A stretch of 64,000 nt of DNA from Rhodocyclaceae bacterium. Its GTDB lineage: Bacteria; Pseudomonadota; Gammaproteobacteria; Burkholderiales; Rhodocyclaceae. The notes under the pieces are model-generated. The model ran no database searches. It was not told where the DNA came from and worked only from the letters and a program-made list of their open reading frames with translations. Positions 28,249-64,000 of this stretch are shown here, piece by piece. Location of the stretch: the NCBI GenBank assembly GCA_006218025.1, contig VBWA01000008.1, forward strand, positions 124,001 through 188,000. Direction: 5' to 3'. Positions within the stretch are counted from its first letter, which is position 1; the number at the start of each line of letters is the position of its first letter. A program made the translations under genes and the position numbers.

Positions 28249-28374
28249 GCGATCAGCCTAACCTAAATTGCACTCGGGTCCCCGACGCCCTTGTTTTCCA
28301 GTGCACGGGCAGCAGGTTTCATTGCCGGTGACGATTGTGAGAAACTTCGACGTCAATCTTTTCTCGGTCCCGCC

Positions 28375-29804: not shown

Positions 29805-29934
29805 GGAAGGGCTCGGTGGTGTTGGACCGGGCTATTCTCGCCGCTCGGAGCCCTGGCCGCAATGCCGGAAGGATGATCGCGAGTCGGCGCAAGGGCACTA
29901 GCCTTGTGCGGGCAGGGTAGGGTACATTTCACCG

Positions 29935-49702: not shown

Positions 49703-49778
49703 GCCGGCATAGCTCAGTTGGTAGAGCAACCGCCTTGTAAGCGGTAGGTCGTCAGTTCGATTCCGACTGCCGGCACCA
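49703..49778 (+). tRNA. tRNA-Thr (anticodon TGT)
   Basis: A 76-base cloverleaf with encoded CCA. Acceptor arms GCCGGCA and TGCCGGC pair perfectly, the D loop is AGCTCAGTTGGTAGAGC, the anticodon loop is CTTGTAA with TGT at 49736-49738, and the T loop has TTCGATT. A strong terminator follows. Confidence 0.97.
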
Positions 49779-49786
49779 GGTAAAAA

Positions 49787-49822
49787 GCAAAAAGGCCACT
49801 CTTCGGAGTGGCCTTTTTACTT
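49787..49822 (+). terminator. Intrinsic terminator after tRNA-Thr, possibly bidirectional
   Basis: AAAGGCCACTC, loop TTCG, GAGTGGCCTTT, flanked by A-runs on the left and T-runs on the right. It could also end minus-strand transcripts of the HigBA module. Confidence 0.9.
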
Positions 49823-49840
49823 TTGCGGCTGCTTGAACTG

Positions 49841-50152
49841 TCAGGCCGCCATCGGCGCGGGGATAACGTGCATCGGCGCGGCCTTGAATCGCTGCTCTGC
49901 CTGCCAGACATCGTAGGCGCTTTGTTCTGCCAGCCACAGGCGGGCTTCGCCCCCGCGTTCCTTGCCCAGCCATGCTTCAATGCGCAGCGCCATCTCAGGC
50001 GAGATAGCGGCGCGGCCATTCAGCACGCGGGAAAGCGTCACGCGGGCCACGGCCAATTGTTGCGCGGCCTCGGTCACGGAAAGCCCCAGCGCCGGCAGCA
50101 CGTCGTCGCGCAGGGTCAGGCCGGGGTGTGGCGGATTGTGCATTCTGCTCAT
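49841..50152 (-). CDS. higA: HigA-type antitoxin
   Basis: Starting at the ATG at 50152 the protein has 103 residues: MSRMHNPPHPGLTLRDDVLPALGLSVTEAAQQLAVARVTLSRVLNGRAAISPEMALRIEAWLG, the XRE helix-turn-helix of the HigA group. It neutralises the toxin and represses the operon. As usual for HigBA the antitoxin comes second, 13 bases after the toxin's stop. Confidence 0.9.
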   Translation of the reverse strand: MSRMHNPPHPGLTLRDDVLPALGLSVTEAAQQLAVARVTLSRVLNGRAAISPEMALRIEAWLGKERGGEARLWLAEQSAYDVWQAEQRFKAAPMHVIPAPMAA

Positions 50153-50165
50153 GGTCAAATTCCTT

Positions 50166-50447
50166 TCAGTGATAGTCCTGATAATCCACCAATACGGCAT
50201 CAGTCCCGTCAAAAGTGAAGGTCATGCGCCAGTTACCGTTCACCGTCACCGAGTAATGTCCCTTGAGTTCTCGGCCCTTCAGCGGATGCAAGCCCCAGCC
50301 CGGCAGACTCATCCCCTGGACATTGGTCGTTTCGTTCAGGCGTCGCAGCATGGCGGCCAGTCGCGGAGCGTGGGCGGTCTGAATGCCGGCCTTGGTCCCT
50401 TTCTCGAAAAAGGCTTGCAGCCCCTTATGCCGGAACGTCTTGATCAT
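50166..50447 (-). CDS. higB: HigB-type toxin
   Basis: A 93-residue RelE-superfamily ribosome-dependent mRNA interferase: MIKTFRHKGLQAFFEKG, PPGWGLHPLKG-like LPGWGLHPLKGRELKGHYSV and NGNWRMTFTFDG with the conserved aromatic and basic residues, ending VLVDYQDYH. It is followed directly by higA. Confidence 0.92.
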   Translation of the reverse strand: MIKTFRHKGLQAFFEKGTKAGIQTAHAPRLAAMLRRLNETTNVQGMSLPGWGLHPLKGRELKGHYSVTVNGNWRMTFTFDGTDAVLVDYQDYH

Positions 50448-50496
50448 GGCTCATTGTATCGCGTAACGGCACACGCATCAATATCAATCAACGCTT

Positions 50497-50520
50497 CGCC
50501 GTGCCGCCAGCGCCGACTTT
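50497..50520 (-). repeat. Dispersed repeat R, copy 10
   Basis: CGCCGTGCCGCCAGCG then CCGACTTT, upstream of the HigBA module. This is the last copy before the integrated element; I noticed none to its right. Confidence 0.85.
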
Positions 50521-50634
50521 CACGCCTCGACTGATTGGCCGTCATCCTGCGCCGCATCAGTCCACATCTACGACAACTACTATGGGGTGGGGACGGGAAT
50601 ATATGAAGCCTCCCAAGGTTCGTGAACCGGGGAG

Positions 50635-50665
50635 GCAAAAAAAGACCGGAGGTGAGTCCGGTCTT
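50635..50665 (-). terminator. Intrinsic terminator downstream of the tmRNA-like 3' end
   Basis: AAGACCGGA and TCCGGTCTT with loop GGTGAG; in the minus direction the stem is followed by a run of T. It lies nine bases beyond the CCA end of the remnant and marks the native end of that RNA gene. Confidence 0.8.
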
Positions 50666-50673
50666 CAATTTGT

Positions 50674-50728
50674 TGGTGGAGGCGGCGGGAATTGAACCCG
50701 CGACCCTGGCTCAACCATGCGGGTCGGA
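50674..50728 (-). ncRNA. ssrA: 3'-end remnant of tmRNA (ssrA), attachment site of the integrated element
   Basis: In the minus direction it reads GCGGGTTCAATTCCCGC, a T arm, then CGCCTCC A CCA, an acceptor 3' strand with CCA. This looks like the 3' end of betaproteobacterial tmRNA. The 5' strand would carry the G3-U70 type wobble of alanine acceptors, so a tRNA-Ala end is a less likely alternative. The RNA body is absent upstream; instead an integrase follows at once. It is therefore one attachment end, and the intact gene should lie at the other end of the element. Confidence 0.7.
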
Positions 50729-50772
50729 TTGAAATGCTGACCAAAGGCTGACCAAGTGCCTCAGAAAACTTG

Positions 50773-51984
50773 TCAGATGTTGGCTGACTTCGGTTCAATT
50801 CCTCCTTCGGGAATTGAACCGGCGTCCGTGGCCCAGAATGTCGAAACGGCCTTGCCGCCGGAGTCGAGTTCGGTGTCCGGCATCCAGCGGCCGTAGGTCT
50901 TGCGGATCATGGCCCAATCGCTGTGACCCATCTGCTGGGCGACCCACATGGGGTGTTCGCCGGCCGAGAGCATCATGCTGGCGTAGGTGTGGCGCGTCTG
51001 GTAGGGGTAGCGGTAGCGGATGCCGGCCCGCTTGAGTGCCGGCGCCCACATGGTTTTGCGGATCGGCTGGTCGCCGGTCCAGCGCTTGCCGTTGCGCGGG
51101 TTCTGGAATATCTCGGCATCGTTCAGGAAGGTGAAGGCTTTCTGGTCCTTGAGGGCGGCGAGCGCAGGGGCGAGCAGTCTGACATCGCGCACGCCGGCGC
51201 GGGTTTTGGTGGTCTCGACGGTATCCTTGGCGGCCTGCGTCGAGGCTTTGCTGATGCGGACGATGCCGCGGATGAAGTCGACGTCGCCCCAGTTGAGGGC
51301 GACGAGTTCGGAGGTGCGCAGGCCGGTCCAGAAGGCGAACTGCACCAGATTGCGTGCCTGGCCTTCGAGCCTGGCCAGAATGGCGGTCTGTTCTTCCTGG
51401 GTGAATGGGTCGATGTCGTCCTGCGCGTCGGTGGGGGCGGCGGCTTTTTCATAGGTCCAGCCAGCGAGCGGGTTGGCGGCGATCAGTTCGTCTTCGAAGG
51501 CTTCCTGTAGGGCAGCGCGGAAGACGCTCAGGATGTTGGCGATGCGTTTGTTGCCGGCTTCAAGGGTGGCGGCCCAGGTCTTGATTTCCGAGCGCTTCAA
51601 TTCGGCGATCGGGCGATCACCAAATTGCGGAATCAGGATCCCGTCGATGGTCTTGCGGTAGTCGTTGCAGGTGCTGGCCTTGAGTTGCGGTTTCTTTGCC
51701 GCGAGCCATGTATCGAGGTGCTTTTCTACCGTGAGCGCTTTGCCGCTGCGGGCGGCAAACTGCTTGGCCTTGGACGAATCGGGGAATGTGGTCAGATAGT
51801 CGAATGTGCCTGTTGAAATGGCGTGAAGGATTGCAGCTCGGTGTTGCGCCGCACGCTTCAGGTTAGCGGGGCTGGGCTCAAGCCTGATCCTCTCTCGGCA
51901 GCGGCCACCCTGGTAGTAAAAGTCGATTTCGATGGTTGACTTCGAGCTGGCCCGAACACCGTCGAATTTGCGCTCTCCACCCAT
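50773..51984 (-). CDS. int: Tyrosine-family phage/ICE integrase
   Basis: A 403-residue recombinase. The N-terminus (about 8-45, KFDGVRASSKSTIEIDFYYQGGRCRERI) is the DUF3596-type arm-binding domain, then a SAM-like core-binding domain, then the catalytic domain with R in TGLRTSEL, HTYAS in TRHTYASMML, GHSDWAMIRKTYGRW and the nucleophile Y364. The gene's last codons run toward the attachment site and include a 12-bp inverted repeat with T-arm-like sequence. Its start overlaps the excisionase gene by 127 bases. Confidence 0.94.
   Translation of the reverse strand: MGGERKFDGVRASSKSTIEIDFYYQGGRCRERIRLEPSPANLKRAAQHRAAILHAISTGTFDYLTTFPDSSKAKQFAARSGKALTVEKHLDTWLAAKKPQLKASTCNDYRKTIDGILIPQFGDRPIAELKRSEIKTWAATLEAGNKRIANILSVFRAALQEAFEDELIAANPLAGWTYEKAAAPTDAQDDIDPFTQEEQTAILARLEGQARNLVQFAFWTGLRTSELVALNWGDVDFIRGIVRISKASTQAAKDTVETTKTRAGVRDVRLLAPALAALKDQKAFTFLNDAEIFQNPRNGKRWTGDQPIRKTMWAPALKRAGIRYRYPYQTRHTYASMMLSAGEHPMWVAQQMGHSDWAMIRKTYGRWMPDTELDSGGKAVSTFWATDAGSIPEGGIEPKSANI
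50791..50821. repeat. 12-bp inverted repeat in the integrase 3' end
   Basis: CGGTTCAATTCC (50791-50802) and GGAATTGAACCG (50810-50821). It contains the same GGTTCAATTCC T-arm core as the nearby RNA-gene remnant, so it may be a second recombination or arm site. Confidence 0.6.
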
Positions 51985-52148
51985 TCGTTGTACCCCTCGA
52001 CATCAATCAGCACCCGGCCATCCGGGGCGCGCTTGAATTCCAATCCTTCGCGCCATACGCCGTCGCGCACCTTGGTGCGGATCGCGTCCGGAGTATAGCC
52101 CGACCAATCCGCGAAGCGCTTGATGGTCATGTAGCGAACGGCGATCAT
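51858..52148 (-). CDS. Excisionase-like small DNA-binding protein
   Basis: A 96-residue protein. MTIKRFADWSGYTPDAIRTKVRDGVWREGLEFKRAPDGRVLIDVEGYNEWVE is a winged-helix excisionase pattern known beside integrases of this type. The 3' part overlaps the integrase start in another frame. It should bias recombination toward excision and may regulate int. Confidence 0.85.
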   Translation of the reverse strand: MIAVRYMTIKRFADWSGYTPDAIRTKVRDGVWREGLEFKRAPDGRVLIDVEGYNEWVESANSTVFGPARSQPSKSTFTTRVAAAERGSGLSPAPLT

Positions 52149-53950: not shown

Positions 53951-54589
53951 CTATGCAACGAGAGCGGATACAGGCGATTCCGTTTCCGTTGGGGTTACGG
54001 CAATGGCTGGGGATGCTGAATCAGTCTCGGCTACACGGCTAGTGTTTTTTCGGGCGGCGATGCTCGCTCGACTGGCCAGACCGCGAAAGCCCCCGGCAAT
54101 GCGCAAGAGGCGGCGCTTCCATTCATACAGGCTGCTGGAATAGTTTCCGTCCGGGATCGAACCCGATAACCAAAGGGTGTCGAATTTTCCAACCAATCCA
54201 TCAAACTCGCGGATGAGTCCGATGTAGCGGACTGCGCGAGGAGAGGTGATCCTGGCCTCAAGCTCCTTCGGGTTCGAGTAGGTGACGCCGGCAAACTCGA
54301 TACCGTTTGCATCGGCCAGCTTTTCAAGTCGAGCCACCTCGGTACGCATGTCTTCGAACATCTTGTCCAGGCGATCATCAACAATCGTCTCTACCTCGCG
54401 CGCCTGCTCGTCAGTGCCAATGACACGCAACACGACTGACAGAGAGAAAATTGCATTTGCGCAAAGCTCGAATCCCCGATCAAACACCTGCTGGGCATGA
54501 AGAGAATGAAGTCTTACCTTCTGCGTGAAGTAGGGCCGACTGATGTCGTGTGACGCAGATGGAATGAACGCGGGCGGCCTGGTTGCCAT
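53951..54589 (-). CDS. Integrative-element protein, tentatively DUF1845/AcaB-like
   Basis: A 212-residue soluble helical protein. TQKVRLHSLHAQQVFDRGF, then DDRLDKMFEDMRTEVARLEKLADANGIE and a segment ending in YIGLIREFDGLVGKFDTLWLSGSI, resemble in layout the DUF1845/PFL_4669 proteins of integrating conjugative elements (relatives of the AcaB regulator). The match is by pattern only. Its stop codon abuts the helicase's GTG, so they form an operon. Confidence 0.5.
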   Translation of the reverse strand: MATRPPAFIPSASHDISRPYFTQKVRLHSLHAQQVFDRGFELCANAIFSLSVVLRVIGTDEQAREVETIVDDRLDKMFEDMRTEVARLEKLADANGIEFAGVTYSNPKELEARITSPRAVRYIGLIREFDGLVGKFDTLWLSGSIPDGNYSSSLYEWKRRLLRIAGGFRGLASRASIAARKNTSRVAETDSASPAIAVTPTETESPVSALVA

Positions 54590-54811
54590 CTATGAACTCC
54601 TGGTGAGATAGGCTCATGCTACAAAACCAGGCGCCGGAATCGAATGCGAAAAGCGCACAAAAGTGCACCGTCTGGCGGTTGCAAATCAGAAACGGCTCAG
54701 TGAAAATGGCTCCACATTCGTTGTGCCTAGTGCCATCGATGAAGCGGTAGCTGGCCGCTGGAAACAATCAGCATTTACGTGCCGTTCATGCCAGTGCGTG
54801 GCGGTATTCAT
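54590..54811 (+). promoter_or_regulatory. Divergent control region of the integrated element
   Basis: The region separates the minus-strand helicase operon from the plus-strand recombination operon. At 54744-54775 it holds GCGGTAGCTGGCCGCT with AAACAATCAGCA, a block repeated before other genes at 55837, 58549 and 61436. No gene is seen. Confidence 0.5.
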
Positions 54812-54868
54812 CAACCCCTGCGGGATGCCCATCCCGCAATGGGGAAAGGTGTTTCCAGGGGTTTTTAC
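54812..54868 (+). promoter_or_regulatory. Structured leader, radC-RNA-like, copy 1
   Basis: Outer stem AACCCCT/AGGGGTT encloses two perfect hairpins: GCGGGAT-GCCC-ATCCCGC (54820-54837) and GGAAA-GGTG-TTTCC (54843-54856). A GGAGG and ATG follow. It resembles the radC RNA motif found upstream of DNA-processing genes of mobile elements. Confidence 0.65.
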
Positions 54869-54879
54869 CTGGAGGCATC

Positions 54880-55239
54880 ATGGAAAAAGTTCTTCTGGTT
54901 GCATCGCTTATCGGGACAGTCCATCTTTTCCTGCTTGCTGTTGGCAGGTTCGGACACCTGGCATTTTCACCGCCGGTGGCCACACCTGAACACTGGCCCG
55001 GCGCGCAAAAGATCCCCGAATGGCACCGATCCGTGTCCGCGTCCTCGCTTGCCAGTCATGACGATGGCGAGGAGGACTGGTCGAAGTACGACGTACCTGC
55101 CTTTATTCGGCGCGGTATTCCGATGCCGAAGCTGGACGTCGTCCAACCGAAAAAGCCGGCCAAAAGAAAGAAGGCCGTCAAAAAGTCGCAAGTTGTTGCT
55201 CCCACCGAAACCGAAGCCCGGTTTGAAGTGGTGCTCTAA
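54880..55239 (+). CDS. Membrane-anchored small protein with FtsZ-tail-like motif
   Basis: A 119-residue protein after GGAGG. Residues 3-25 (KVLLVASLIGTVHLFLLAVGRFG) form one membrane helix, followed by an acidic linker and, at about residues 70-82, YDVPAFIRRGIPMPK. DVPAFIRR closely resembles the conserved C-terminal peptide of FtsZ (DIPAFLRKQ type), which binds FtsA, ZipA and other division factors. A lysine-rich stretch (KKPAKRKKAVKK) precedes the end. I know no family for it. It is the first plus-strand gene of the element and follows a structured leader. Confidence 0.7.
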   Translation: MEKVLLVASLIGTVHLFLLAVGRFGHLAFSPPVATPEHWPGAQKIPEWHRSVSASSLASHDDGEEDWSKYDVPAFIRRGIPMPKLDVVQPKKPAKRKKAVKKSQVVAPTETEARFEVVL

Positions 55240-55259
55240 CTCGACACTCTGAAGCGATT

Positions 55260-55320
55260 CAAACCCATGCGGGGATACTTTCCCCGCCTGGGGCCTGGTG
55301 TCTCCGCATCTTTTTCAAGG
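55260..55320 (+). promoter_or_regulatory. Structured leader, radC-RNA-like, copy 2
   Basis: AAACCC, then the perfect hairpin GCGGGGA-TACTT-TCCCCGC (55269-55287), then GGGGCCTGGTGTCTCC. It lies directly before the first 26-residue gene. Confidence 0.55.
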
Positions 55321-55327
55321 AGACATC

Positions 55328-55408
55328 ATGGAACTCGTTCTTATCGCGTGCTGCATTAGTGGCTTCGTCATCAGTCGTCCGATCATTCGGGCGCTGGGTC
55401 TGCGCTAA
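55328..55408 (+). CDS. 26-residue membrane peptide, copy 1
   Basis: ATG to TAA, with GGAG before the start. MELVLIACC starts a single hydrophobic helix and the end is SGFVISRPIIRALGLR, a basic amphipathic tail. A second gene (55554-55637) encodes nearly the same tail, which supports translation of both. The family is not recognised. It may be a small inner-membrane regulator; possible toxicity is untested. Confidence 0.65.
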   Translation: MELVLIACCISGFVISRPIIRALGLR

Positions 55409-55435
55409 ACCAGCACCAACCTCGCCTGTGGGAAT

Positions 55436-55481
55436 CCCGCAGGCCTAAAGATTTTCGAAAGAGAGTCCTTAGGCCTGCGGG
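55436..55481 (+). other. 13-bp hairpin between the two micro-genes
   Basis: CCCGCAGGCCTAA (55436-55448) and TTAGGCCTGCGGG (55469-55481) pair perfectly around 20 bases. No T-run follows. It lies in the spacer between the two small peptide genes. Confidence 0.7.
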
Positions 55482-55553
55482 GTTGTTACGGGCGCGCATC
55501 AAGCCTGGCAACTCGTGTGGGGTTCATTCATCAACCCGACAAGGAGCCTAGCC

Positions 55554-55637
55554 ATGATATTTCTGATACTCGCGATGTGTGCCGTTTCTGGTTTCATCAT
55601 CAGCCGCCCCATCGTTCGCGCGCTGGGGCTGCGATGA
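55554..55637 (+). CDS. 27-residue membrane peptide, copy 2
   Basis: ATG to TGA, preceded by AAGGAG. MIFLILAMCAV is hydrophobic and SGFIISRPIVRALGLR matches copy 1 with two conservative changes (V to I, I to V). The DNA differs at many third positions, so the peptide, not only the DNA, is conserved. The GGGTT/AACCC element in its leader (55519-55537) may be a short version of the radC-like structure. Confidence 0.65.
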   Translation: MIFLILAMCAVSGFIISRPIVRALGLR

Positions 55638-55972
55638 CGACTGGCACCTGTCGTCAAGATGCGTCTCACCCCTTGATCGTCAGGCATCACGCAAACCGGA
55701 TATTGTGGTTTGCGTGATGCGTGATCCACCTATCCCGCGCTTTGGTGCGGGCTTTCCAGAACTCATCGCGCGGTGTGCTGCGGTGTGCTGCGGAAAGCCA
55801 GATTGTCGCTTCTGGGTAACCAGGAGCATCAAGAGGCGGTAGCTGGCCGCTCGAAACAAACAGCCATTAGCGACAGTCAGGCAACTGCCTGTCATTACCA
55901 ACCCCGCCAGGGACGCATGTTCCCGGCAGGGAATGAGTGCCTTCAGCGGGAATCTTGCCTCTGGAGGTAGAA
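55638..55972 (+). promoter_or_regulatory. Composite leader region A (335 bp without a gene)
   Basis: Three parts are seen. A 14-bp hairpin GCATCACGCAAACC / GGTTTGCGTGATGC lies at 55684-55720. From about 55734 comes a module shared with 58443 and 61346: a GC hairpin, GCTTTCCAG and its partner GCGGAAAGC, then GCGGTAGCTGGCCGCT and AAACAAACAGC. The radC-like core (55899-55961) has CAACCCCGCC, CATGTTCCCGGCAGGG and a GGAGG. The recE-like gene follows. Confidence 0.65.
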
Positions 55973-56926
55973 ATGCTTATAGAAACTCAAGTCGGCCTTC
56001 TGTCGATGGCGTCCGAGGAGTACCACCGCAACAAGGACGCTGTCGGGCATTCAAGCCTTGTGCGGATCATGCGGTCCCCGGCGCATTTTCAGGAATACGT
56101 CACCCATCCGCCCGAGCCGACCCCGGCAATGGCATTTGGTACGGCCGTTCACTCCGCGGTTCTTGAGCCGGCCGCATTCGCTTCCGACTATGCGGTATTC
56201 GATGAGTCGCAACTCGAAGGTTCGTTGCAGTCGCTCGATGACTACAAGGCGGCGGCTGCGGAACTTGGTATCAAGGTCGGGAAGATGAAGAAGGAAGAGA
56301 TCAAGGACGCCATCAAGGTGGCCGACGTCGAGTCCAGATTTGTCTTTCGGGAGGATGCAATTGCCAGGTTATATGACGGCAAGCAAATCCTGACACCCAC
56401 CCTGATGATGGCCATCCGGTCCATTCAGGCAAGCATCTCTCGTCACATTGGCGCTTCGCGTTTGCTGGCGAACGGGATGGCTGAAATGTCCGGCTTCTGG
56501 AGTGATCCGGAGACCGGGCTCGGATGTAAGTGCCGACCGGACTGGCTTGCAATGGCCGAAGGAATCGTCACCGGCATCGTGGATGTAAAAACCTGCGTCG
56601 ATGCCTCGGCAGAGGGATTTGCTCGTTCAATCGCCACGCTCGGTTACGACCTGCAGGCGGCGTTCTATCAGGACGGCGTCAAGGCCATTACGGGCAGGAC
56701 GCTCCCGTTCTACTTCATCGCCGTCGAAAAGGACGCTCCGCAAGCGGCAGCGGTCTATCGGGCTAGCGAGGAGGTCATCGACGTCGGGCGCGCCAAGTTT
56801 CGCGGTGCGCTTCAGCTCCTGCAATGGTGTCGTGCGAACAACCGCTGGCCGGCGTATCAGCCAAACGGGGAGATCGAAACGATCGAATTGCCACGCTGGG
56901 CGGCGAACTTTGATCTGGAGAGCTGA
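55973..56926 (+). CDS. RecE/YqaJ-type PD-(D/E)XK exonuclease-like protein
   Basis: The ATG at 55973 after GGAGGT gives 317 residues. An early VGHSSLVRIMRSPAHFQEY and FGTAVHSAVLEPAAF are typical of the DUF3799/RecE C-terminal family. The nuclease core has CKCRPDWL and TGIVDVKTCVDAS, with the aspartates and lysine that bind metal, and a late ATLGYDLQAAFYQDG. It should resect double-stranded ends to give the substrate of the RecT-like annealase encoded two genes downstream. Confidence 0.88.
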   Translation: MLIETQVGLLSMASEEYHRNKDAVGHSSLVRIMRSPAHFQEYVTHPPEPTPAMAFGTAVHSAVLEPAAFASDYAVFDESQLEGSLQSLDDYKAAAAELGIKVGKMKKEEIKDAIKVADVESRFVFREDAIARLYDGKQILTPTLMMAIRSIQASISRHIGASRLLANGMAEMSGFWSDPETGLGCKCRPDWLAMAEGIVTGIVDVKTCVDASAEGFARSIATLGYDLQAAFYQDGVKAITGRTLPFYFIAVEKDAPQAAAVYRASEEVIDVGRAKFRGALQLLQWCRANNRWPAYQPNGEIETIELPRWAANFDLES

Positions 56927-56927
56927 A

Positions 56928-57218
56928 ATGCCGAGCAATCCAATCGAGAAGGTCGCACCTTATCTCTACGAGGTCGGGGATCCGATTCTGTCGATCGCTG
57001 CCCGAGTGGAAGCAAAGGTGGATGCCCTCAAACAGGCGGAAGCCGAAGTTGTTCGTTGCAGACGCGCGCTCAAGGAAAGTCGCCGATTGCTCCTTGCCTG
57101 CGTCAAGCATAGCTATGTGGATTCGGAAATTGAAACCGCAGATGCGATGTGCAACCGACAGAAATTCCGTCCTCAGGCTATGCAAGCCCTCGCACCGAGG
57201 AATAGTCTGAAACGGTGA
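56928..57218 (+). CDS. Small hypothetical protein between the recE- and recT-like genes
   Basis: The ATG one base after the nuclease stop gives 96 residues. The sequence is helical with a likely coiled coil (AARVEAKVDALKQAEAEVVRCRRALKESRR). No family is recognised. Its position suggests a part in end-processing or just a passenger of the operon. Confidence 0.6.
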   Translation: MPSNPIEKVAPYLYEVGDPILSIAARVEAKVDALKQAEAEVVRCRRALKESRRLLLACVKHSYVDSEIETADAMCNRQKFRPQAMQALAPRNSLKR

Positions 57219-57233
57219 AGTAGCAGCAGTAAT

Positions 57234-57308
57234 CAACCCGGCGGGAATGCCATGTTCCCGCAAGGGGCGTGGTGTGACCGCCTTTTCTATTTATTGGAGG
57301 TCAATACC
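57234..57308 (+). promoter_or_regulatory. Structured leader, radC-RNA-like, copy 4 (before recT)
   Basis: CAACCCGGCGGGAA, loop TGCCATG, TTCCCGC (stem 57241-57261), then AAGGGGCGTGGTGTGACC and GGAGG before the recT ATG. The GTGGTG downstream may pair with the loop. Confidence 0.65.
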
Positions 57309-58436
57309 ATGTCACTGCAAGCCTTGAGAAACATCAATCGCAACACGCCCAACGATGCTGAGCAACCGAAAGGTTTCCCGGCCATGCTGGAACAGTTCAA
57401 GGGTGAAATTGCCCGCGCCCTGCCCAAGCACATCAATCCGGACCGCATGGCGCGCATTGCACTTACTGCATTCCGAATGACACCCAAGCTTGGAGAGTGT
57501 GATCCCCGCAGCGTATTCGCCGCGGTCATCCAGTCTTCGCAGATGGGGCTGGAAGTCGGTCTCATGGGGGAAGCGCATCTGGTGCCGTTTGGCAACCAGT
57601 GCCAGCTGATCCCCGGCTACACGGGCCTGATGAAGCTCGCTCGACAGTCCGGACTGGTTCAGGACATCTATGCTCACGAAGTCAGGGTGAATGACGTTTT
57701 TACCCTCAAGCTGGGCATGGAACGCAGTCTCGATCACGAGCCATTGACGACGCTGGGCGGCTTTCCTGCCGCCGACGACGAGCGTGGCGAGGTCGCCGGT
57801 TTCTATTCCGTCGCGGTGTTCAAGGATGGAAGTCGGACGTTTGTGGCGATGGGGCGCAAGGAGGTTGAAAAGATTCGCGATAACTCGCGAGGCTATCAGT
57901 CTGCCAAGCGATACAAGAAGGAGTCTGTATGGGATTCCGACTTTACGGCGATGGGCCTGAAGACAGCGATTCGTCGCTTGTGCAAATTCCTGCCCAAGTC
58001 ACCCGAACTGGCCTCTGCACTGGCGCTGGATGCTGCTGCGGAGCAGGGCAAGGCGCAAAACCTGAATTTGACCGATGTGATCGAGGGCAACTACGCACCG
58101 ATCATTGACGACGAGACGGGCGAGATCGCAGACGCCAAGCCGGTGACGGGCCGCGATGCCAGGCAATCCAGGCCGGGTGGCGATCCGGTTGAGGTGGCTG
58201 ACGCAACTGGAAAGAAGGTGAAAGTGGATGGCGTGTCTGCCATCGCTACCGACCCCTCCGGCCAGGAACCCAGCGCCAGGCTGAAAGCGATCTACGAACA
58301 GATGGCCAAGGCAACAAGCACGGAAGTGCTGGACGAGATTTATGTCCGCGCCGAAGGTGATCTGGATGGAGCCGAACTGGAGGCCTTGATGCGGGAATAC
58401 CGCACATGCAAGGCAGCCATCGGCCGACTGATCTAA
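57309..58436 (+). CDS. recT: RecT-family single-strand annealing protein
   Basis: The ATG at 57309 (spaced from GGAGG) gives 375 residues. LPKHINPDRMARIALTAFRMTPKLGECDPRSVFAAVIQSSQMGLEVG and AHLVPFGNQCQLIPGYTGLMKLARQSG are the RecT core; a C-terminal acidic linker and a 60-residue helical end follow. It anneals complementary single strands and, with the upstream nuclease, forms a RecET-like pair for recombination of the element. Confidence 0.95.
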   Translation: MSLQALRNINRNTPNDAEQPKGFPAMLEQFKGEIARALPKHINPDRMARIALTAFRMTPKLGECDPRSVFAAVIQSSQMGLEVGLMGEAHLVPFGNQCQLIPGYTGLMKLARQSGLVQDIYAHEVRVNDVFTLKLGMERSLDHEPLTTLGGFPAADDERGEVAGFYSVAVFKDGSRTFVAMGRKEVEKIRDNSRGYQSAKRYKKESVWDSDFTAMGLKTAIRRLCKFLPKSPELASALALDAAAEQGKAQNLNLTDVIEGNYAPIIDDETGEIADAKPVTGRDARQSRPGGDPVEVADATGKKVKVDGVSAIATDPSGQEPSARLKAIYEQMAKATSTEVLDEIYVRAEGDLDGAELEALMREYRTCKAAIGRLI

Positions 58437-58442
58437 ACCCCT

Positions 58443-58676
58443 CCCCGTGCTTCGGCACGGGGCTTTCCAGAGCATGGAGCGGTCCGTGCTGCGGAAAGCG
58501 AGTTATTCAAAATTGTTCCCCTGGCTATGCCAACGGGACATGAAGGTAGCTGGCCTTCTGAAACAAACAGCATCTGGCTGCAATCGGGAAACCGGTTGCC
58601 ATTAAAACCCCGCCGTGGGGCGCAAGCTCCCGGCAGGGAACGAGCGCCTCCGGCGGTTTTTCGTCTGGAGGTTGCA
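58443..58676 (+). promoter_or_regulatory. Composite leader region B
   Basis: CCCCGTGC-TTCG-GCACGGGG (58443-58462), then GCTTTCCAG, AGCATGGA/TCCGTGCT, GCGGAAAGC (58462-58499), the GGTAGCTGGCC block with AAACAAACAGCA, and a radC-like core (58605-58662) ending in GGCGGTTTTTCGTCTGGAGG. Confidence 0.65.
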
Positions 58677-59333
58677 ATGGACGTTGTAATCAATCACGAG
58701 CAGGAGTTGTTCGTTGTTTCCGCTGGCAAGGGGTATTCAACCCTGGGCTTCGAGCATGTCTTCAAGCAATTGAAGCAACTCGTGGCGCGGCTGAATCTCT
58801 CGATCCAGATTCGCGAGGATGAAAAGGGAACCATCGGTCAGTACGCCGATTTTCAGCGCGCCATCAACGAGGCTGCCAAGGCAAATCTCAAGGAGACCTG
58901 GTTCAATCTCGACACTCCCGTCAAGGTTCGCCGAATCCTGGAGCAGTACCGCAGGAGCGGCAAGGCGATTCGCCTCTTCTACGGAGATGTGGAGCGGGGC
59001 GAAGACTGGCTGGAAGAAAACGACGTGGTGGGAAAAATCGGCCGCTCGTCGGGTACTTTCAAGATCCCCATTCTTCTTCAAAACGGTGAGTCATGGGGTG
59101 TCAGCATTCTCGATCACGCGATCGTCAGGCTGATGGATGTGGCAGATCGGAAGGTTCTCTGGGAGCACCCGAAATATCAGGCGCCTCAGTTGCAGATTCT
59201 CGCGAAGCGCGTTGGCGACGACCCCTATTCGGTGTTTGTCGACGGCGGTCCTCACGCAAGCTTCAGAACTTTGGCGAAGGCAGCCCAGTGGGTCGCGTTC
59301 ATGGCCGGTGAGTGCATGGAAGCGCCTCAGTAG
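58677..59333 (+). CDS. Hypothetical integrative-element protein
   Basis: The ATG at 58677 after GGAGG gives 218 residues. It is soluble; the sequence has [34 protein letters not shown]-type mixed alpha/beta (residues about 100-150) and no motif I can name. Similar proteins are common passengers of conjugative elements. It sits between recT and ssb, so a role in DNA processing is possible but not shown. Confidence 0.65.
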
Positions 59334-59344
59334 TCGAGTATTTC

Positions 59345-59419
59345 AACCAACCCGGCGGGATCGTCATGCTCCCGTCAGGGGCATGGTGTGACCGTCCTTT
59401 TCATCACAAGGAGTTCATC
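59345..59419 (+). promoter_or_regulatory. Structured leader, radC-RNA-like, copy 6 (before ssb)
   Basis: CAACCCGGCGGGA, TCGTCATG, CTCCCGTCAGGGGCATGGTGTGACC, then AAGGAG and ATG. It is nearly the same as the recT leader; differences in the stem (A to T partner) are compatible with pairing. Confidence 0.65.
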
Positions 59420-59827
59420 ATGCTTAACAAGGTTCAATTGATCGGTTTTCTGGGGGCTGACCCCGAGCTTCGACGCAGCAATGACAGCGATGCCATTGCG
59501 CGCGCAAATATCGCCACCAGTGAAAGCTGGAAGAAGGATGGCGAGATGCACGAAAAAACGGAATGGCACCGTGTCGTGTTCTTCGGAAAACTCGCCGAGA
59601 TTGTGGGCGACTATCTGAAGAAAGGTTCGCTGGTGTATGTCGATGGCCGTCTCCAGACCCGTTCATGGGACAAGGATGGCGAGACTCGCTACACCACCGA
59701 AATCGTCGTCGAGAGCATGAAGATGCTCCCCAGCGGCGGTGGCAAGGCCAGGGAAGGTTCTGACGCCAGATCGGTGCCGAAAGGAAACCCCAAGGCGGCA
59801 CAACCATTCGATGACGGGCCATTCTGA
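59420..59827 (+). CDS. ssb: Single-stranded DNA-binding protein
   Basis: The ATG at 59420 after AAGGAG gives 135 residues. [22 protein letters not shown] and [34 protein letters not shown] are the OB fold of SSB, and the C-terminal tail is PFDDGPF, the protein-interaction tip (DDDIPF type). It is shorter than chromosomal SSB (about 175). It protects single strands during transfer or replication of the element. Confidence 0.95.
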
Positions 59828-59854
59828 TGGCTTCGCGCTCAGGCACTGTTTTTA

Positions 59855-60004
59855 GCGCCTGACATTACCAACCCCACCGGGGAGTTACCCCGGTCGGGGT
59901 GCCTCTATGCCGGTGGGTAATTCACCGGCCCGCGACGGGGCCTTCCCAAGTGCCTCGCGCGGGCATTTCGGCAGGCCCCGTCCGGGCTACTCATGGAGGC
60001 AATC
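59855..60004 (+). promoter_or_regulatory. Structured leader, radC-RNA-like, copy 7 (before the primase)
   Basis: CATTACCAACCCCACCGGGGAG, then CCCCGGTCGGGG, a GCCGGTGGGTAATTCACCGGC hairpin and GGCCTTCCC. A GGAGG lies at 59995-59999 and the ATG at 60005. Confidence 0.6.
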
Positions 60005-61081
60005 ATGGAAGCAAAGGAAGTCAAGGCTGCTGCACATGGCCGCTGGGGCGGGATTCTCTCGGCCCTTGCGCCACAGCTTCAACCCGCACTTGATCGAGTC
60101 GGTCATCACGTTTCCTGCCCGGTGCACGGCGGCAAGGACGGATACCGTGTGTTTAATGACGTGGATGATTCGGGAGGCGGCGTCTGCAATACCTGTGGCG
60201 TCCATCCCGATGGATTTGCCACGCTGATGTGGGTGTCCGGCATGGATTTCAGGGAAGCACTGAAGTCCGTAGCCGAGTACCTGCGTGTCGGCATCATCGC
60301 CAGGCCGTTTGGCGGGAGAACCATTTCTCGTCAGACCCGAAAGGGCGAAGATGACGAAAAGGCGCGCCAGGCGCTTAACCGGGTCTGGAACGAGTCGATC
60401 GCCCTCTCTCATTCCGATGCTGAACCGGCCAGGTTGTATCTGGCTCGAAGAGGTATCTCGATCCGACAACCGGAAACACTCCGTCTTCACTCATCGCTCG
60501 CGTATTTCGAGGACAGAAAGGAGATCGGTACGTTTCCGGCGATGCTGGCCATGGTGCAGGGTCACGGCGGCAACGCCATCACCATTCACCGTACCTACCT
60601 GACGGCGGACGGCTACAAGGCCCCCGTCGAGTCACCAAAGAAGCTGATGCGGTATCCCAGTCAGCGGAAGCTGTCGGGCGGAGTCATCCGACTGGTGGAG
60701 GCTGGCGCCGTGCTGGCAGTGGCAGAAGGTCTGGAGACGGCTCTCGCGGTCATGGAAGGGACGAAGATGCCGGTCTGGTGCGCGGTCAATGCGTATCTGC
60801 TGGAAAACTTTTACCCGCCACCCGGCGTGAGTCAGATCCTGGTCTTCGCCGACAAGGATCGGCCCTCGGCGCAACATCCAAGAGGGCATGGTCAGGAATC
60901 CGCCAGGCGGCTGGTACAAAGGCTCTGGGAGCGGGGTATCAAGGCCAGTGCCATTGTTCCTGCGGGTGAGATTCCCGCCGGTCAGAGGTCACTGGACTGG
61001 CTCGATGTCCTCAATCGCGATGGCAAGGCAGGTTTTCCTTCCCTGCAATCCGTTGAACATGCCATGCGTCGCGTTGCGTGA
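60005..61081 (+). CDS. DnaG-like primase with zinc-ribbon and Toprim domain
   Basis: The ATG at 60005 is preceded by GGAGG; the ATG at 59993 contains that site and is rejected. The 358-residue protein has a CHC2-like zinc ribbon (CPVHGG ... CNTCG, residues about 36-66) and a Toprim-type catalytic region (LAVAEGLETALAV and ILVFADKD). It should make primers for element replication or lead-strand recovery after transfer. Confidence 0.88.
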   Translation: MEAKEVKAAAHGRWGGILSALAPQLQPALDRVGHHVSCPVHGGKDGYRVFNDVDDSGGGVCNTCGVHPDGFATLMWVSGMDFREALKSVAEYLRVGIIARPFGGRTISRQTRKGEDDEKARQALNRVWNESIALSHSDAEPARLYLARRGISIRQPETLRLHSSLAYFEDRKEIGTFPAMLAMVQGHGGNAITIHRTYLTADGYKAPVESPKKLMRYPSQRKLSGGVIRLVEAGAVLAVAEGLETALAVMEGTKMPVWCAVNAYLLENFYPPPGVSQILVFADKDRPSAQHPRGHGQESARRLVQRLWERGIKASAIVPAGEIPAGQRSLDWLDVLNRDGKAGFPSLQSVEHAMRRVA

Positions 61082-61094
61082 AGGCGGTGACGCC

Positions 61095-61187
61095 ATGGAC
61101 AGGAATGCTGACGTCAGCCCGGTCGATATTGCAACCCTGCCCGGATGCATTGGGTCGGAGATCCCTCGTAACAGGAGGGCATCATGA
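61095..61187 (+). CDS. Possible 30-residue peptide upstream of the 50-residue gene
   Basis: MDRNADVSPVDIATLPGCI, ending in PRNRRAS, overlaps the following ATG by four bases (ATGA). It has no clear ribosome site. It could be a leader peptide coupling translation, or chance. Confidence 0.3.
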   Translation: MDRNADVSPVDIATLPGCIGSEIPRNRRAS

Positions 61188-61336
61188 AATATCAGTACCT
61201 GGGACCACAAACCGTCGCAGAACTCGCGGACGGGAAACGGGTGCTTCTCTGCAAGGGATCGGTGCTTCTGGTCCTGATACTCAGCGCACAACTCAAGGCG
61301 CTCGTGGAGAAGGGCCTTCTGAAGGAAATCGCATGA
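61184..61336 (+). CDS. 50-residue hypothetical protein
   Basis: ATG after AGGAGGGC. MKYQYLGPQTVAELADGKRV then a hydrophobic helix (LLCKGSVLLVLILSAQLKAL) and VEKGLLKEIA. The good ribosome site and the codon use favour a real gene. It may be a small helical or membrane-associated protein of the element. Confidence 0.6.
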   Translation: MKYQYLGPQTVAELADGKRVLLCKGSVLLVLILSAQLKALVEKGLLKEIA

Positions 61337-61345
61337 ATCCGGGGT

Positions 61346-61568
61346 CCGCCGAAAGGCGGGCTTTCCAGAGCGCATCGCGAGGTGCGCTGCGGAAAGCGAA
61401 ATTGTCGCTCCCGGGTAATCCAGGGGTGTCATAGGCGGTAGCTGGCCGCTCGAAACAATCAGCAATCAACGACGCTCAGGCAACTGATCGTCATTCACAA
61501 CCCCGCCGGGGCATTGACCCCGGCGACGGGCTTGGTGCCTTCGGCGGTTTTTTCGTCTGGAGGCAAGC
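61346..61568 (+). promoter_or_regulatory. Composite leader region C
   Basis: CCGCC-GAAA-GGCGG (61346-61359), then GCTTTCCAG, AGCGCA/TGCGCT, GCGGAAAGC (61360-61397), the GCGGTAGCTGGCCGCT block with AAACAATCAGCA, and the radC-like core (61498-61551) with CACAACCCCGCCGGGG, CCCCGGCG and GGCGGTTTTTTCGTCTGGAGG. Confidence 0.65.
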
Positions 61569-61763
61569 ATGTATCACTATGAAGATGGAACGACACGCTG
61601 GCGGCGGTTCAATGGATGCGGCGATGTTCGTGCCTGCCGCGCTCCGCGCGGATGGCAAGCCAGTGCCGACTTGATCGACGTTCACCCGGTGACCGGAAAG
61701 TATCTCGGTGTATCGGACTGGTGGATCAAGGAAGTCAGGGAGGCCGGTCATGGAAAAGCCTGA
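61569..61763 (+). CDS. 64-residue hypothetical protein
   Basis: ATG after TGGAGGCAAGC, ending 14 bases inside the ArdC-like gene. MYHYEDGTTRWRRFNGCGDVRACRAPRGWQASADLIDVHPVTGKYLGVSDWWIKEVREAG is not a known family to me, but the overlap and the strong ribosome site support expression. Confidence 0.6.
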   Translation: MYHYEDGTTRWRRFNGCGDVRACRAPRGWQASADLIDVHPVTGKYLGVSDWWIKEVREAGHGKA

Positions 61764-62571
61764 CTGGAACTCCCTGCTTCAACAGGTACTGACGCTGCCC
61801 GGAACGCTGTCAAAGGCGTACTCGGTATTTCACGACTACTCGCTCGGCAACGCAATCCTTGCGGCATTTCAACTGGCGGCGCGTGGTCTTCCTCTCGCCC
61901 CTATTGCCAGCTTCAATCGCTGGAAAAATCTGGGCCGAAAGGTCAGGAAAGGCGAGAAGGCCCTTTCTCTCATCATGCCGGTCACGGTCAAGAGAAAGGA
62001 CAAGGACGAACACACTCAGGAAGAGGTGACGGGTGGTGCTTACATGATCTTTTTGATGAAGCGCAACTGGTTCAGTCTCGACCAGACGGAAGGCGATGTT
62101 TTCCAGCCGGAGGTGTGGACGCCGGAGTGGGATAAATCAAGAGCGCTTGTCGTGCTGGATATTCGGGAAGTTCCGTTCGAGATGATCGACGGCAACTGCC
62201 AAGGATATGCCAAGCGCGGTGTCCGCGAGGTGGCTGTCAATCCTGTTGCCGCGATGCCATGGAAGACACTTTTCCACGAAGTTGCGCATCACCTGCTTGG
62301 CCACACGGCCACGGGTGACGAGACGGGAGTGATGGCCGACGGCCCCACGATGCCGAAATGCATCAAGGAGGCTGAAGCCGAGGCAACGGCCTACCTGTGC
62401 TGCGCGACCCTCGGGTTGCCAGGCATGGAGGAAAGCCGGGGCTACATCCAGAGCTGGCTCGATGGGAAGGAATTCCCGGAAAAGTCGGCGCGTCGGGTGT
62501 TTTCGGCAGCGGACAAGATTCTCAAGGCGGGTACCCAGGCCTTGAAAGAGGTGGCGATGCGCGATGAGTAA
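61750..62571 (+). CDS. ArdC-like antirestriction protein
   Basis: The ATG at 61750 gives 273 residues. The N-terminal half (about 1-130: LSKAYSVFHDYSLGNAILAAFQL, RWKNLGRKVRKGEKALSLIMP) is the ssDNA-binding ArdC domain; the second half is a zinc metallopeptidase domain with LFHEVAHHLLGH (HExxH) and an EAEAEATAYL glutamate helix. ArdC protects incoming DNA from restriction in conjugative plasmids. It overlaps the 64-residue gene. Confidence 0.93.
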   Translation: MEKPDWNSLLQQVLTLPGTLSKAYSVFHDYSLGNAILAAFQLAARGLPLAPIASFNRWKNLGRKVRKGEKALSLIMPVTVKRKDKDEHTQEEVTGGAYMIFLMKRNWFSLDQTEGDVFQPEVWTPEWDKSRALVVLDIREVPFEMIDGNCQGYAKRGVREVAVNPVAAMPWKTLFHEVAHHLLGHTATGDETGVMADGPTMPKCIKEAEAEATAYLCCATLGLPGMEESRGYIQSWLDGKEFPEKSARRVFSAADKILKAGTQALKEVAMRDE

Positions 62572-62629
62572 TTCGCGTGTCGCCTCCCATGTTCAGGTCT
62601 GGCATGGATGGCAGGCAGCACGTTTCTAA
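62564..62629 (+). CDS. Possible 21-residue peptide after the ArdC-like gene
   Basis: ATG at 62564 overlaps the ArdC-like gene's stop (ATGAG) and ends TAA. MSNSRVASHVQVWHGWQAARF has no feature of note. It may be chance. Confidence 0.2.
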   Translation: MSNSRVASHVQVWHGWQAARF

Positions 62630-62671
62630 AAGATGGAAGTGGCTTCGGCGGCTTCCATATTTACTCCCTCA

Positions 62672-62708
62672 GGGGCCGTATGCGCCCCCTGGGGATGCGC
62701 ACGGCCCC
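62672..62708 (+). promoter_or_regulatory. Long hairpin leader before radC
   Basis: GGGGCCG (62672-62678) pairs with CGGCCCC (62702-62708) and TGCGC (62681-62685) with GCGCA (62697-62701), with a TA bulge and a CCCC-T-GGGG inner core. It differs from the other leaders yet sits at the same place before a DNA-processing gene. Confidence 0.65.
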
Positions 62709-62729
62709 ATTTCCTGAAAGGCAAATGAA

Positions 62730-63338
62730 ATGGAAATGCGCACCATTGAAATGACCAATGCCGATTTGCTGGCGGTTCTCTGTGGCCCGGCGGGTCGCGC
62801 CCTGTCAACACGTCCCCTCTCGGAAATCTTCGGGATCAGGTCGGCACGACAGACAAGCTTCATTGCAGGGGAAGAGCGGACGTCCTACGAGGCGCAGCCG
62901 CAAATCGCCGCTGCGAAGGAGCTTTACATCCGGGCAATGCAGGAAGACATGAGCAGGACGGGCATCAATCTGGCCTCGCCCAGTGCGGCGTCGACATTCC
63001 TGTGTGGCCGGATCGGAGGCTACGAGCATGAAGTGTTCATGTGCCTGTGGATGGATGCCCGGAACCGGTTGATTGTCGCGGAAGAACTCTTTCGCGGCAC
63101 GCTGACCCAGACCTCGGTCTACCCGCGGGAGGTGGTCAAGCGAGCGCTGGTGCACAACGCGGCAGCGGTGATACTCGCTCATAACCATCCGAGCGGAGAA
63201 GCCGACCAGTCGCGGGCGGACGAAATGCTGACGACTAGCCTCAAGGCCGCGCTTGCACTGGTGGATGTCAAGGTTCTGGACCACTTCATCGTGGCCGGGA
63301 ACAAGACGCTTTCGTTCGCCGAAAGGGGACTGCTTTGA
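62730..63338 (+). CDS. radC: RadC-family (JAB/MPN) protein
   Basis: The ATG at 62730 (GAAAGG before it) gives 202 residues. The MPN metal site is [17 protein letters not shown] with the E in [10 protein letters not shown], and DHFIVAG follows. RadC-like proteins are common on conjugative elements; the exact enzymatic role is unsettled. It lacks the full helix-hairpin-helix part of chromosomal RadC. A structured leader precedes it. Confidence 0.92.
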
Positions 63339-63610
63339 AAGGCAGCTTCAAGCCCTTCCGGCAGGAACTGGTTCAGGTGGTCGATCTCGACGAGCGCGGG
63401 TGGTTCAAGTCGCACGTCGAGAATCAGAACGGCCGAACGGTGTTTTCGTTCTCGAATGAGGACGGAAACACCGGCTGGCCGAGTGAAGACGGTCTGTGGC
63501 TTGTCGAGGACGGCTTCATGCGGCACGGGCGCGATACCGGCGGGCTTCTGGAGTATCTGAAGAACGCCGGAATTGCGAAACCGACTGCAACCCTGCGCGT
63601 GGAGGGCTGA
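63335..63610 (+). CDS. Hypothetical protein coupled to radC
   Basis: A TTG start overlapping the radC stop (TTGA) gives 91 residues. The sequence is acidic and aromatic-rich ([35 protein letters not shown]). Family unknown. The unusual start codon is supported only by the overlap and the absence of a nearer ATG. Confidence 0.6.
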
Positions 63611-63614
63611 TGGC

Positions 63615-63860
63615 ATGAGAACTTTGCTCTCCACTCGCCGCGCCATGTTCTACCGGCTCGTCCGACAAGCCAACGAACAGTCATCGCAATGGCTGGAGGA
63701 CGTGCTCAAGGACAAGACGCGGAACAAAGGGCATTTCACCGCAGTTGCTCGCCTGGCCTGCCTGCGAATCCTGGTCTGCCGCGACTACGGCATCAACAGT
63801 CCTTCGGGACTGCCGTATCCGCAGCGGAAAAAGGCGGTGCGGGCGGCGCTCGGCATCTGA
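63615..63860 (+). CDS. Small basic hypothetical protein
   Basis: ATG at 63615, four bases after the preceding stop, with GGAGGG ten bases upstream; 81 residues. Helical, basic: MRTLLSTRRAMFYRLVRQAN, CLRILVCRDYGIN, PYPQRKKAVRAAL. No family recognised. It may bind DNA. Confidence 0.6.
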   Translation: MRTLLSTRRAMFYRLVRQANEQSSQWLEDVLKDKTRNKGHFTAVARLACLRILVCRDYGINSPSGLPYPQRKKAVRAALGI

Positions 63861-63871
63861 AGCAATCCTTT

Positions 63872-63906
63872 CCCAACCGGGGCCACTTCCCGGTTGGGGA
63901 GTGGCC
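63872..63906 (+). promoter_or_regulatory. Leader with H-type pseudoknot pairing
   Basis: CCCAACCGG (63872-63880) pairs with CCGGTTGGG (63890-63898). Inside its loop GGCCACT (63881-63887) can pair with AGTGGCC (63900-63906) after the stem. GGAGGT and an ATG follow. Confidence 0.6.
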
Positions 63907-63929
63907 TCTCACCATTCTGGAGGTCAACA

Positions 63930-64000
63930 ATGAAACTCGATACAGGCGTCGTTCCGGTGGACGAGCAAACCTACCATGCCGTCGCGACAACTCGCGATCC
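63930..64000 (+). CDS. Start of a further element gene, truncated at the window edge
   Basis: ATG after GGAGGTCAACA; MKLDTGVVPVDEQTYHAVAT is visible. Too short to identify; its structured leader suggests another gene of the same regulon. Confidence 0.6.
   Translation, partial: MKLDTGVVPVDEQTYHAVATTRD

Follow-up and report, generated by a model that had tools for sequence, protein, structure and literature searches.

We analysed a 64,000-nucleotide stretch of DNA from a Rhodocyclaceae bacterium (GenBank assembly GCA_006218025.1, contig VBWA01000008.1, positions 124,001 to 188,000), which we call the window. Towards its right end, an operon with recE-like, recT, ssb, primase, ardC-like, and radC genes runs in one direction from 54.7 kb to at least L004:2508. 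(Positions outside the window are given as stretch and coordinate.) We count twelve candidate leaders from 54812 to 63932, and the words CAACCC, AGGGG, TGGTG, and GGAGG and a G/C hairpin recur in them. The leader set extends beyond the end of the window: in L003, a stretch that overlaps the window, there are further leaders at L003:16464 (window coordinate 64463) and at L003:17435-17579 (65434-65578). Two conserved RNA structures lie in these leaders and recur in IncC plasmids and other elements. Module 1 is a hairpin (H1) followed by a stem that sequesters the Shine-Dalgarno (SD) sequence. Module 2 is a pseudoknot followed by a second hairpin (H2).

To describe the modules, we used two covariance models. 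R2 represents module 1, and its training set was 10 leaders, of which 4 come from the window; R1 represents the pseudoknot and has 10 training rows, 3 from the window. On the gene strand, R2 finds 9 of the 12 leaders at E ≤ 1 (the four training rows, and five others at E values from 6e-6 to 0.91). It misses the leaders before 55554, 61184, and 62730 (radC). Its single other match in the 64 kb is partial and lies opposite the 55260 leader, on the other strand (E = 0.049). The claim of our first-pass annotation, that most genes of the element in 54812-63906 share structured leaders, therefore stands as an observation. R1 finds four copies in the window and none further at E ≤ 1. In the four long leaders, the R2 match starts at most 3 nt from the end of the R1 match, so a long leader consists of module 2 and then module 1. 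When each leader was folded alone, the SD was paired with a probability of at least 0.75 in 8 of 12 (with the 55328 leader scored on AAGG instead of GGAG). The features are listed in Table 1.

Table 1. Leaders, associated features, and recognizable genes at the left of and within the operon, in window coordinates (training row, used to build the model in question)
Feature	Position	Strand	Evidence or remark
AcaB-like gene, divergent from the operon	53951..54589	-	Pfam AcaB E 9e-4, 19.5 bits, under the curated cut-off of 27
Candidate activator box, dyad GCGCACAAAAGTGCAC, before the first leader	54653..54668	+	91 nt 5' of S1
Pseudoknot S1-S2 and H2, copy 1	54740..54808	+	R1 52.7 bits, E 4e-12, non-training
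H1 and SD-sequestering stem, leader of 119-aa protein	54811..54882	+	R2 E 3e-10, training row; SD paired probability 1.0
H1 and SD/AUG stem, leader of micropeptide 1 (ATG 55328)	55260..55330	+	R2 E 3e-14, training row
Degenerate leader of micropeptide 2: CAACCC then SD, without a strong hairpin	55520..55556	+	R2 unmatched; weak fold
GC hairpin, stem T (GGCTTTCC/GGAAAGCC), and hairpin H0, 5' of pseudoknot 2	55740..55831	+	Fold
Pseudoknot and H2, copy 2	55832..55899	+	R1 75.6 bits, training row
H1 and SD stem, leader of recE-like gene (ATG 55973)	55898..55975	+	R2 E 0.91 only; SD paired probability 0.98
H1 and SD/AUG stem, recT leader (ATG 57309)	57234..57311	+	R2 E 3e-13, training row; AUG paired probability 0.95
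recT	57309..58436	+	Pfam RecT E 3e-39
GC hairpin, stem T, and H0, 5' of pseudoknot 3	58455..58538	+	Sequence, fold
Pseudoknot and H2, copy 3 (S1 AAGG/CCTT)	58539..58606	+	R1 77.1 bits, training row
H1 and SD stem, leader of gene at 58677	58604..58679	+	R2 E 0.002, non-training
H1 and SD/AUG stem, ssb leader	59348..59422	+	R2 E 3e-13, training row
ssb	59420..59827	+	Pfam SSB E 1e-33
H1 and SD stem with long insert, leader of primase gene	59865..60007	+	R2 59868-59915 only, E 0.22; GCCTC/GAGGC closes the insert
Diverged leader, SD stem CCCTC/GAGGG, before 50-aa open reading frame	61138..61186	+	R2 unmatched; fold
GC hairpin, stem T, and H0, 5' of pseudoknot 4	61338..61430	+	Fold
Pseudoknot and H2, copy 4	61431..61498	+	R1 76.7 bits, training row
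H1 and SD stem, leader of 64-aa open reading frame preceding ardC	61498..61571	+	R2 E 6e-6, non-training
ardC-like gene	61750..62571	+	Pfam ArdcN E 9e-10
Diverged but structured radC leader	62661..62732	+	R2 unmatched; fold
radC	62730..63338	+	Pfam RadC E 2e-41
H1 and SD stem, leader of the window's last gene (ATG 63930)	63868..63932	+	R2 E 0.027, non-training

H1 (CAACCC...GGGG) has an outer CCC/GGG clamp, which encloses an inner stem, and a variable loop. Directly 3' of H1 is the SD stem, whose 5' arm runs from (C)ATGGTG into YCYCC and whose 3' arm, GGAGR...CACCATG, holds the Shine-Dalgarno sequence and often the AUG too. Given these arms, TGGTG pairs with the region of the start codon (CACCATG), and YCYCC with the SD. 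The words picked out by the first-pass annotation are parts of this module, with CAACCC and AGGGG as the two sides of H1 and GGAGG as the SD. It had also described a CATG-like loop as a common feature, which does not hold, as the loop varies from leader to leader. We aligned 110 distinct rows, from searches of 32 sources: 89.1% of the cells pair, and 13 of the 18 pairs have changed on both sides (9 of 10 in the SD/AUG stem). The covariation score is 0.213, compared to at most 0.097 with the partner slid. Exchanging arms among 82 leaders (with under 80% identity) lowers the stability of both H1 (z = -12.0) and the SD/AUG stem (z = -15.3).

In module 2, the order is stem S1 (4-5 bp), the loop UAGCUGG, an A-rich linker, CAGC, and H2. 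The CAGC can pair with GCUG in the S1 loop, and this second stem (S2) makes an H-type pseudoknot. The linker is 10 nt long in 141 of 142 copies (the search expression permitted 8-12 nt, and the copies were selected for S1 pairing), and longer linkers occur in at least two other copies (L018:5111 and L018:11651). Across 105 distinct rows (54 sources searched), the cells are 94.8% paired, with a covariation score of 0.413, versus at most 0.070 when the partner is slid. Both-side changes are found at all 14 pairs of S1 and H2; for S1 alone, they are found at 5 of 5 pairs, and 94.7% of cells pair. S2 is 98.3% paired and nearly invariant, so covariation says little about it. CUG/CAG is present in 139 of the 163 matches to S1 with the spacing and the linker. 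Natural double changes keep S2 paired in two true copies (GCUA/UAGC at L153:7107- and CCG/CGG at L058:18586), and a G-U pair keeps it in one other (L114:2953-). Overall, eight non-canonical S2 matches can pair: three are true leader copies, three are not (L057, L067, and L167), and two were left unclassified (L069 and L101). The status of one near-canonical match without pairing, L070:496, is uncertain.

(We also noticed HEARO RNA elements, Rfam RF02033, at L018:5195-5431 and L071:7213-7451. The one in L018 is directly 3' of a pseudoknot copy, R1 match 5107-5181, at the position where H1 would be expected.)

Matches to the loop-linker pattern provide a test of S1 that does not select for it. 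At least 4 of the 5 S1 pairs form in 121 of the 142 genome-contig matches listed, compared to 3 of 33 matches in viral contigs (where the pattern was one base shorter). The 21 genome-contig matches with fewer than 4 pairs are probably due to chance, and a few of the others may be as well. We also considered a phage origin for the leaders and rejected it: none of the phage records resembles the ardC-side leader, and no clear phage case was found, the 3 viral matches being candidates only.

As to which strand is functional, the ratios of G-U to A-C in the two modules are 78:10 and 138:48, versus 145:93 and 156:71 after shuffling. This excess points to RNA of the gene sense. It bears on the idea that the repeats are single-stranded-DNA promoters or primer sites of the Frpo/ssi type, from which the first-entering strand is transcribed. 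Frpo promoters are described for leading regions (PMC11541004), and the gene set here (ssb, ardC, radC, and recT) resembles the content of a leading region. But an Frpo site would fold on the transferred template strand, and the pairing of the SD and AUG also suggests an RNA. Moreover, we found no promoter-like sites (-35/-10) in L003:6500-20000, which contains this element's leaders, where 4.0 were expected. We consider Frpo/ssi sites to be very unlikely.

The first-pass annotation had named the leaders as radC RNA (Rfam RF01754), which it described as known from mobile-element genes; the gene neighbourhood, with radC and integrating elements, fits this. However, the RF01754 covariance model does not match these leaders. 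It has no match at the gathering threshold in the window or in 5 + 18 related loci, and none at E ≤ 5 in the window's 54-64 kb. Searches with it also gave nothing in the bacterium's own genome, where the positive control was silent, and 0 of 229 genomes at the class level. Since the class-level controls were silent too, that search says little alone, and the direct scans are the actual test. We think it extremely improbable that these are radC RNAs. The annotation's proposal of a regulon is supported, because models built from the leaders find further leaders and the covariation is strong; membership in that RNA family is not supported. No other Rfam family reaches its gathering threshold at the leaders, either in the window or in the 5 + 18 related loci.

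A riboswitch, in which the pseudoknot would bind a small molecule and set the hairpins downstream, would suit module 2, where the pseudoknot is compact, its loop and linker are nearly invariant, and a platform that sequesters the SD follows at once. However, the leaders are found before unrelated genes of one family of elements, and many have the platform without the pseudoknot. The nearest thing to a known class was the SAH riboswitch, with a match at 61373-61484 of 24.1 bits (gathering threshold 37), at one copy only, which we treated as chance. It seems highly doubtful that the leaders are riboswitches.

We then asked where else the modules occur. R1 matched 13 of 399 genomes at the order level, including the bacterium's own genome and one match that looks false by eye (L061:6651). 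At the class level it matched 1 of 369 genomes, again its own. The named pattern scan gave at least 116 stretches. Among the matches listed are Sulfuritalea, Accumulibacter, Dechloromonas, Vibrio, Shewanella, Photorhabdus, Alcanivorax, and Comamonas, as well as an Edwardsiella plasmid, a Providencia chromosome, and the Providencia plasmid p8538-NDM-1. In PLSDB, 861 records match a 331-bp leader stretch of that plasmid, and 840 of them are typed as conjugative. In pSHE-CTX-M (typed IncC; one PLSDB record examined), pseudoknots are located around ssb, bet, and exo (L211:14203, 15246, 20081, and 23913), and R2 matches at E ≤ 1 for 9 of the 15 operon gene starts examined, with ssb, bet, and exo among those matched. 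Another plasmid with these leaders, pSTJ2, has a comparable operon (recE-, recT-, ssb-, primase-, ardC-, and radC-like genes), which adjoins genes of the AcaB and FlhC families and MobH.

The match at IncC bet (L211:17853-17933, E = 5e-6) ends at the start codon. For SXT, a related element, a passage in a review (PMC4542580) describes high transcription of bet and exo, whose translation is kept down by a strong attenuator located upstream of bet; the attenuator is also present in IncA/C plasmids but was shown for SXT only. The R2 match at the IncC bet leader suggests that the attenuator of this passage is module 1. We therefore regard module 1 as probably a widely used translational attenuator.

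A protein could also control these leaders. In such a feedback loop, a nucleic-acid-binding protein of the element (SSB, RecT/Bet, or another) would bind the pseudoknot or H1; free protein would repress, and incoming single-stranded DNA would titrate it, so that the operon is translated. Autoregulation of T4 gene 32 follows a comparable logic. The operon does encode SSB and RecT, R2 matches on IncC include ssb, bet, and exo, and H1 is more conserved than hiding an SD would require. On the other hand, many leaders are H1 and the SD stem alone, with no pseudoknot. We view feedback as improbable.

The surroundings of module 2 suggest a second role. In related elements, it lies behind the operon's promoter and again behind internal junctions. 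The first copies have a promoter upstream (TTGACA-16-TAGAAT in L017, L018, and L021; TTGACA-17-TATTTT in L053, L055, L056, and L058), and most later copies have a GC hairpin or a second stem. The order 5' of later copies is a GC hairpin, a stem that we call T, and a hairpin, H0. (Examples of stem T are GGCTTTCC/GGAAAGCC; GCTTACC/GGTAAGC in L003; and CTTTTTATGACGCA/TGCGTCATAAAAAG in L053.) We applied simple rules to the 139 copies with sufficient upstream DNA, with sites scoring 9/12 or better taken as promoter-like. A terminator-like hairpin was found upstream of 70 copies, versus 36 on the reverse complement, and a promoter-like site upstream of 19, versus 7; one copy has both. Under a second set of rules, 60 of these copies have stem T only, and 33 have a promoter or box only. 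Stem T scores 9 or higher in 72 of 139 copies, versus 62 of 417 shuffles.

These findings fit a mechanism in which both modules would act in cis on the mRNA of a single long operon for recombination and establishment. Module 1, before many cistrons, would attenuate translation, so that strong transcription is possible while those cistrons stay poorly translated. Rho action and pausing would be favoured by long leaders that are not translated and by silent cistrons. Promoter-like sites are absent from L003:6500-20000 in our scan, and in the IncC stretch L211:13900-27400 there are 3, versus 9.5 expected, as would suit a long operon. Module 2 would sustain RNA polymerase across the untranslated, hairpin-rich stretches, by processive antitermination or by protection from Rho, and would be reloaded at each internal junction of GC hairpin and stem T. 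We suggest this role for the pseudoknot because it is conserved and sits behind the promoter and the junctions, as such an element would; it is a possibility that we would not bet on. We hold the two-module reading as a whole, an attenuator with a pseudoknot that sustains RNA polymerase, tentatively, at somewhat under even chances.

The same junctions could instead be processing sites. RNase III or RNase E would cut the GC hairpin and stem T to give stable, translationally controlled mRNAs; the GC hairpin would protect the upstream 3' end, and H0, the pseudoknot, and H2 would protect the new 5' end. Where stem T is found, its position is nearly fixed, with its arms ending at quartiles of -77/-75/-73 and -38/-36/-31 relative to S1, and the spacing from the T-run to S1 is tight (quartiles of 72/73/75 nt in the 70 terminator-like copies). 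But the first copies, which have no stem T by eye, keep the pseudoknot behind a promoter, so protecting a processed end is not its sole use. We regard processing as rather unlikely.

Several observations weigh against antitermination on a single transcript. First, the junctions do not look like strong terminators: when a minimum of 5 T in 8 bases is required, the scan gives a single clear terminator, at a junction of pSTJ2 (L021:23448), and the junctions of the window and of IncC have none. Second, the simple rules found neither a terminator-like hairpin nor a promoter-like site at 51 of the 139 copies. The second rule set found both kinds of feature at 12 and neither at 34, although a shorter CTTTCC/GGAAAG stem is present in 8 of these 34, among the matches listed. 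Third, we infer that the window's operon is one transcript, but this is not secured, because the window's first copy has no promoter-like site in our scan and because pSTJ2 has internal ones (9 in 14300-34000, versus 6.5 expected, of which 4 are inside the operon on the gene strand). Fourth, no antitermination protein of a known kind was recognized among the 16 proteins scanned, which are part of the element's genes.

Other points concern the structures themselves. The outermost pair of S2 is lost in 14 of 142 copies (which end in CAGA or CGGA), and S2 is mismatched further in one copy (L062/L034). Both alignments were gathered with the models and fitted to them, which tilts the pair counts and the G-U bias toward the structures. 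An anti-attenuator fold, between the 3' arm of H1 and the 5' arm of the SD stem, was attractive by eye but is weakly supported by arm exchange (z = -2.9 and -1.8 for two splits). A mechanical score for the SD stem separates the operon from tra genes modestly (p = 0.006) and is also high in 5 of 8 IncC tra genes; it is a blunt measure, and 5 of the 16 window starts supplied to it were off by 1-2 bases.

The first-pass annotation had also linked the leaders to entry or transfer of the element, and coordinated control tied to transfer is plausible. A counterpart box on IncC, GCCCAAAATGGAC, lies 84 nt 5' of the first copy and resembles the boxes before traN and dsbC, which are AcaCD targets (PMC4207636). 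Also, the bet/exo promoters are SetCD/AcaCD-dependent and have the highest peaks in chromatin immunoprecipitation (ChIP-exo), according to the review passage (PMC4542580). In related copies, 22 of 33 matches to a loose expression for the box lie at -83 to -96. The dyad GCGCACAAAAGTGCAC was derived from the window itself, so its exact match there is not a test; with 3 mismatches allowed, it has 2 matches versus 0.93 expected, which is not unusual. (In three related elements, a tRNA-Asp (GTC) gene lies about 300 bases 3' of the first pseudoknot copy, at L021:14899-14972, L017:16176-16249(-), and L018:3469-3542. A long G/C-rich stretch, possibly structured, precedes it in each.)

The element probably begins at a tRNA-Thr gene with an adjoining tyrosine recombinase gene (49703-52148). 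A tRNA-Thr also lies close to the copy of the element in L017. No 14-mer common to the tRNA region and the right side was found that could mark attR, which leaves the ends of the element unproven. At L004:2510-2556, after the last helicase gene, there is an orphan H1-like match (E = 0.003), and cob-like genes begin nearby; with no attR repeat found, the element may be truncated at its right.

The operon also contains small or uncharacterized genes. The first leader precedes a small protein (54880-55239, 119 amino acids) without a match in Pfam and NCBIfam scans. It and its counterpart at L021:17814-18173 have a hydrophobic N-terminus and a motif, KYDVPAFIRRGIPMPK / KYDIPTFIRRGIPMPK, which we take to resemble the tail of FtsZ. 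Early cistrons encode similar micropeptides in the window (55328 and 55554), in L021 (15220 and 15449), and in L058 (after 7281). Those of the window and pSTJ2 have SRPIIRALGLR-type ends, and that of L058 is alike at its start. The protein between recT and ssb (58677-59333) has no match in Pfam and NCBIfam scans either; the gene at the equivalent position in pSTJ2 is annotated as 'cysteine protease'.

More broadly, IncC plasmids are major vehicles for drug resistance, and hybrid elements arise with the help of their recombination genes. A conserved RNA on many genes of the operon would help to explain strong transcription with weak translation, and the leaders would provide a sequence tag for such operons throughout the Proteobacteria. 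In the fullest form of our proposal, the leaders would be a new RNA family of IncC-type and betaproteobacterial conjugative elements (perhaps also SXT/R391): a relay of pseudoknots would sustain RNA polymerase, or preserve the transcript, across an operon of about 18-25 kb, hairpins at the SD and AUG would keep its cistrons shut, and the poised mRNA for recombination and anti-restriction would be released upon transfer or damage. This full picture is speculative, and we would expect parts of it to be wrong.

How do these leaders compare to known systems? In related elements, the first copy comes immediately after a promoter that serves a long operon, as is the case for put RNA and other processive antitermination RNAs. 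Unlike those RNAs, the element described here is reiterated at internal junctions and is a pseudoknot rather than simple hairpins, and its role in antitermination is proposed from its location.

The SXT bet attenuator is similar in that translation is held before a single-strand annealing gene within an activator-driven recombination operon; as compared to its description in the review passage (PMC4542580), module 1 is found before many cistrons, in elements of both beta- and gammaproteobacteria, and has beside it a pseudoknot module, of which the passage says nothing. The bet attenuator of one element was already known. The use of module 1 at many cistrons of the operon, and the pseudoknot module, were found neither in Rfam nor in the openly available literature that we searched, which gave the bet attenuator only, by way of the review.

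Finally, like Frpo/ssi promoters, these are repeated, hairpin-rich elements before ssb and anti-restriction genes. They differ in that no promoter hexamers were found in this element's leaders, which have conserved pairing of the SD and AUG and show a wobble bias for the sense strand. The leaders may form a second system for controlling establishment genes, alongside the Frpo promoters.

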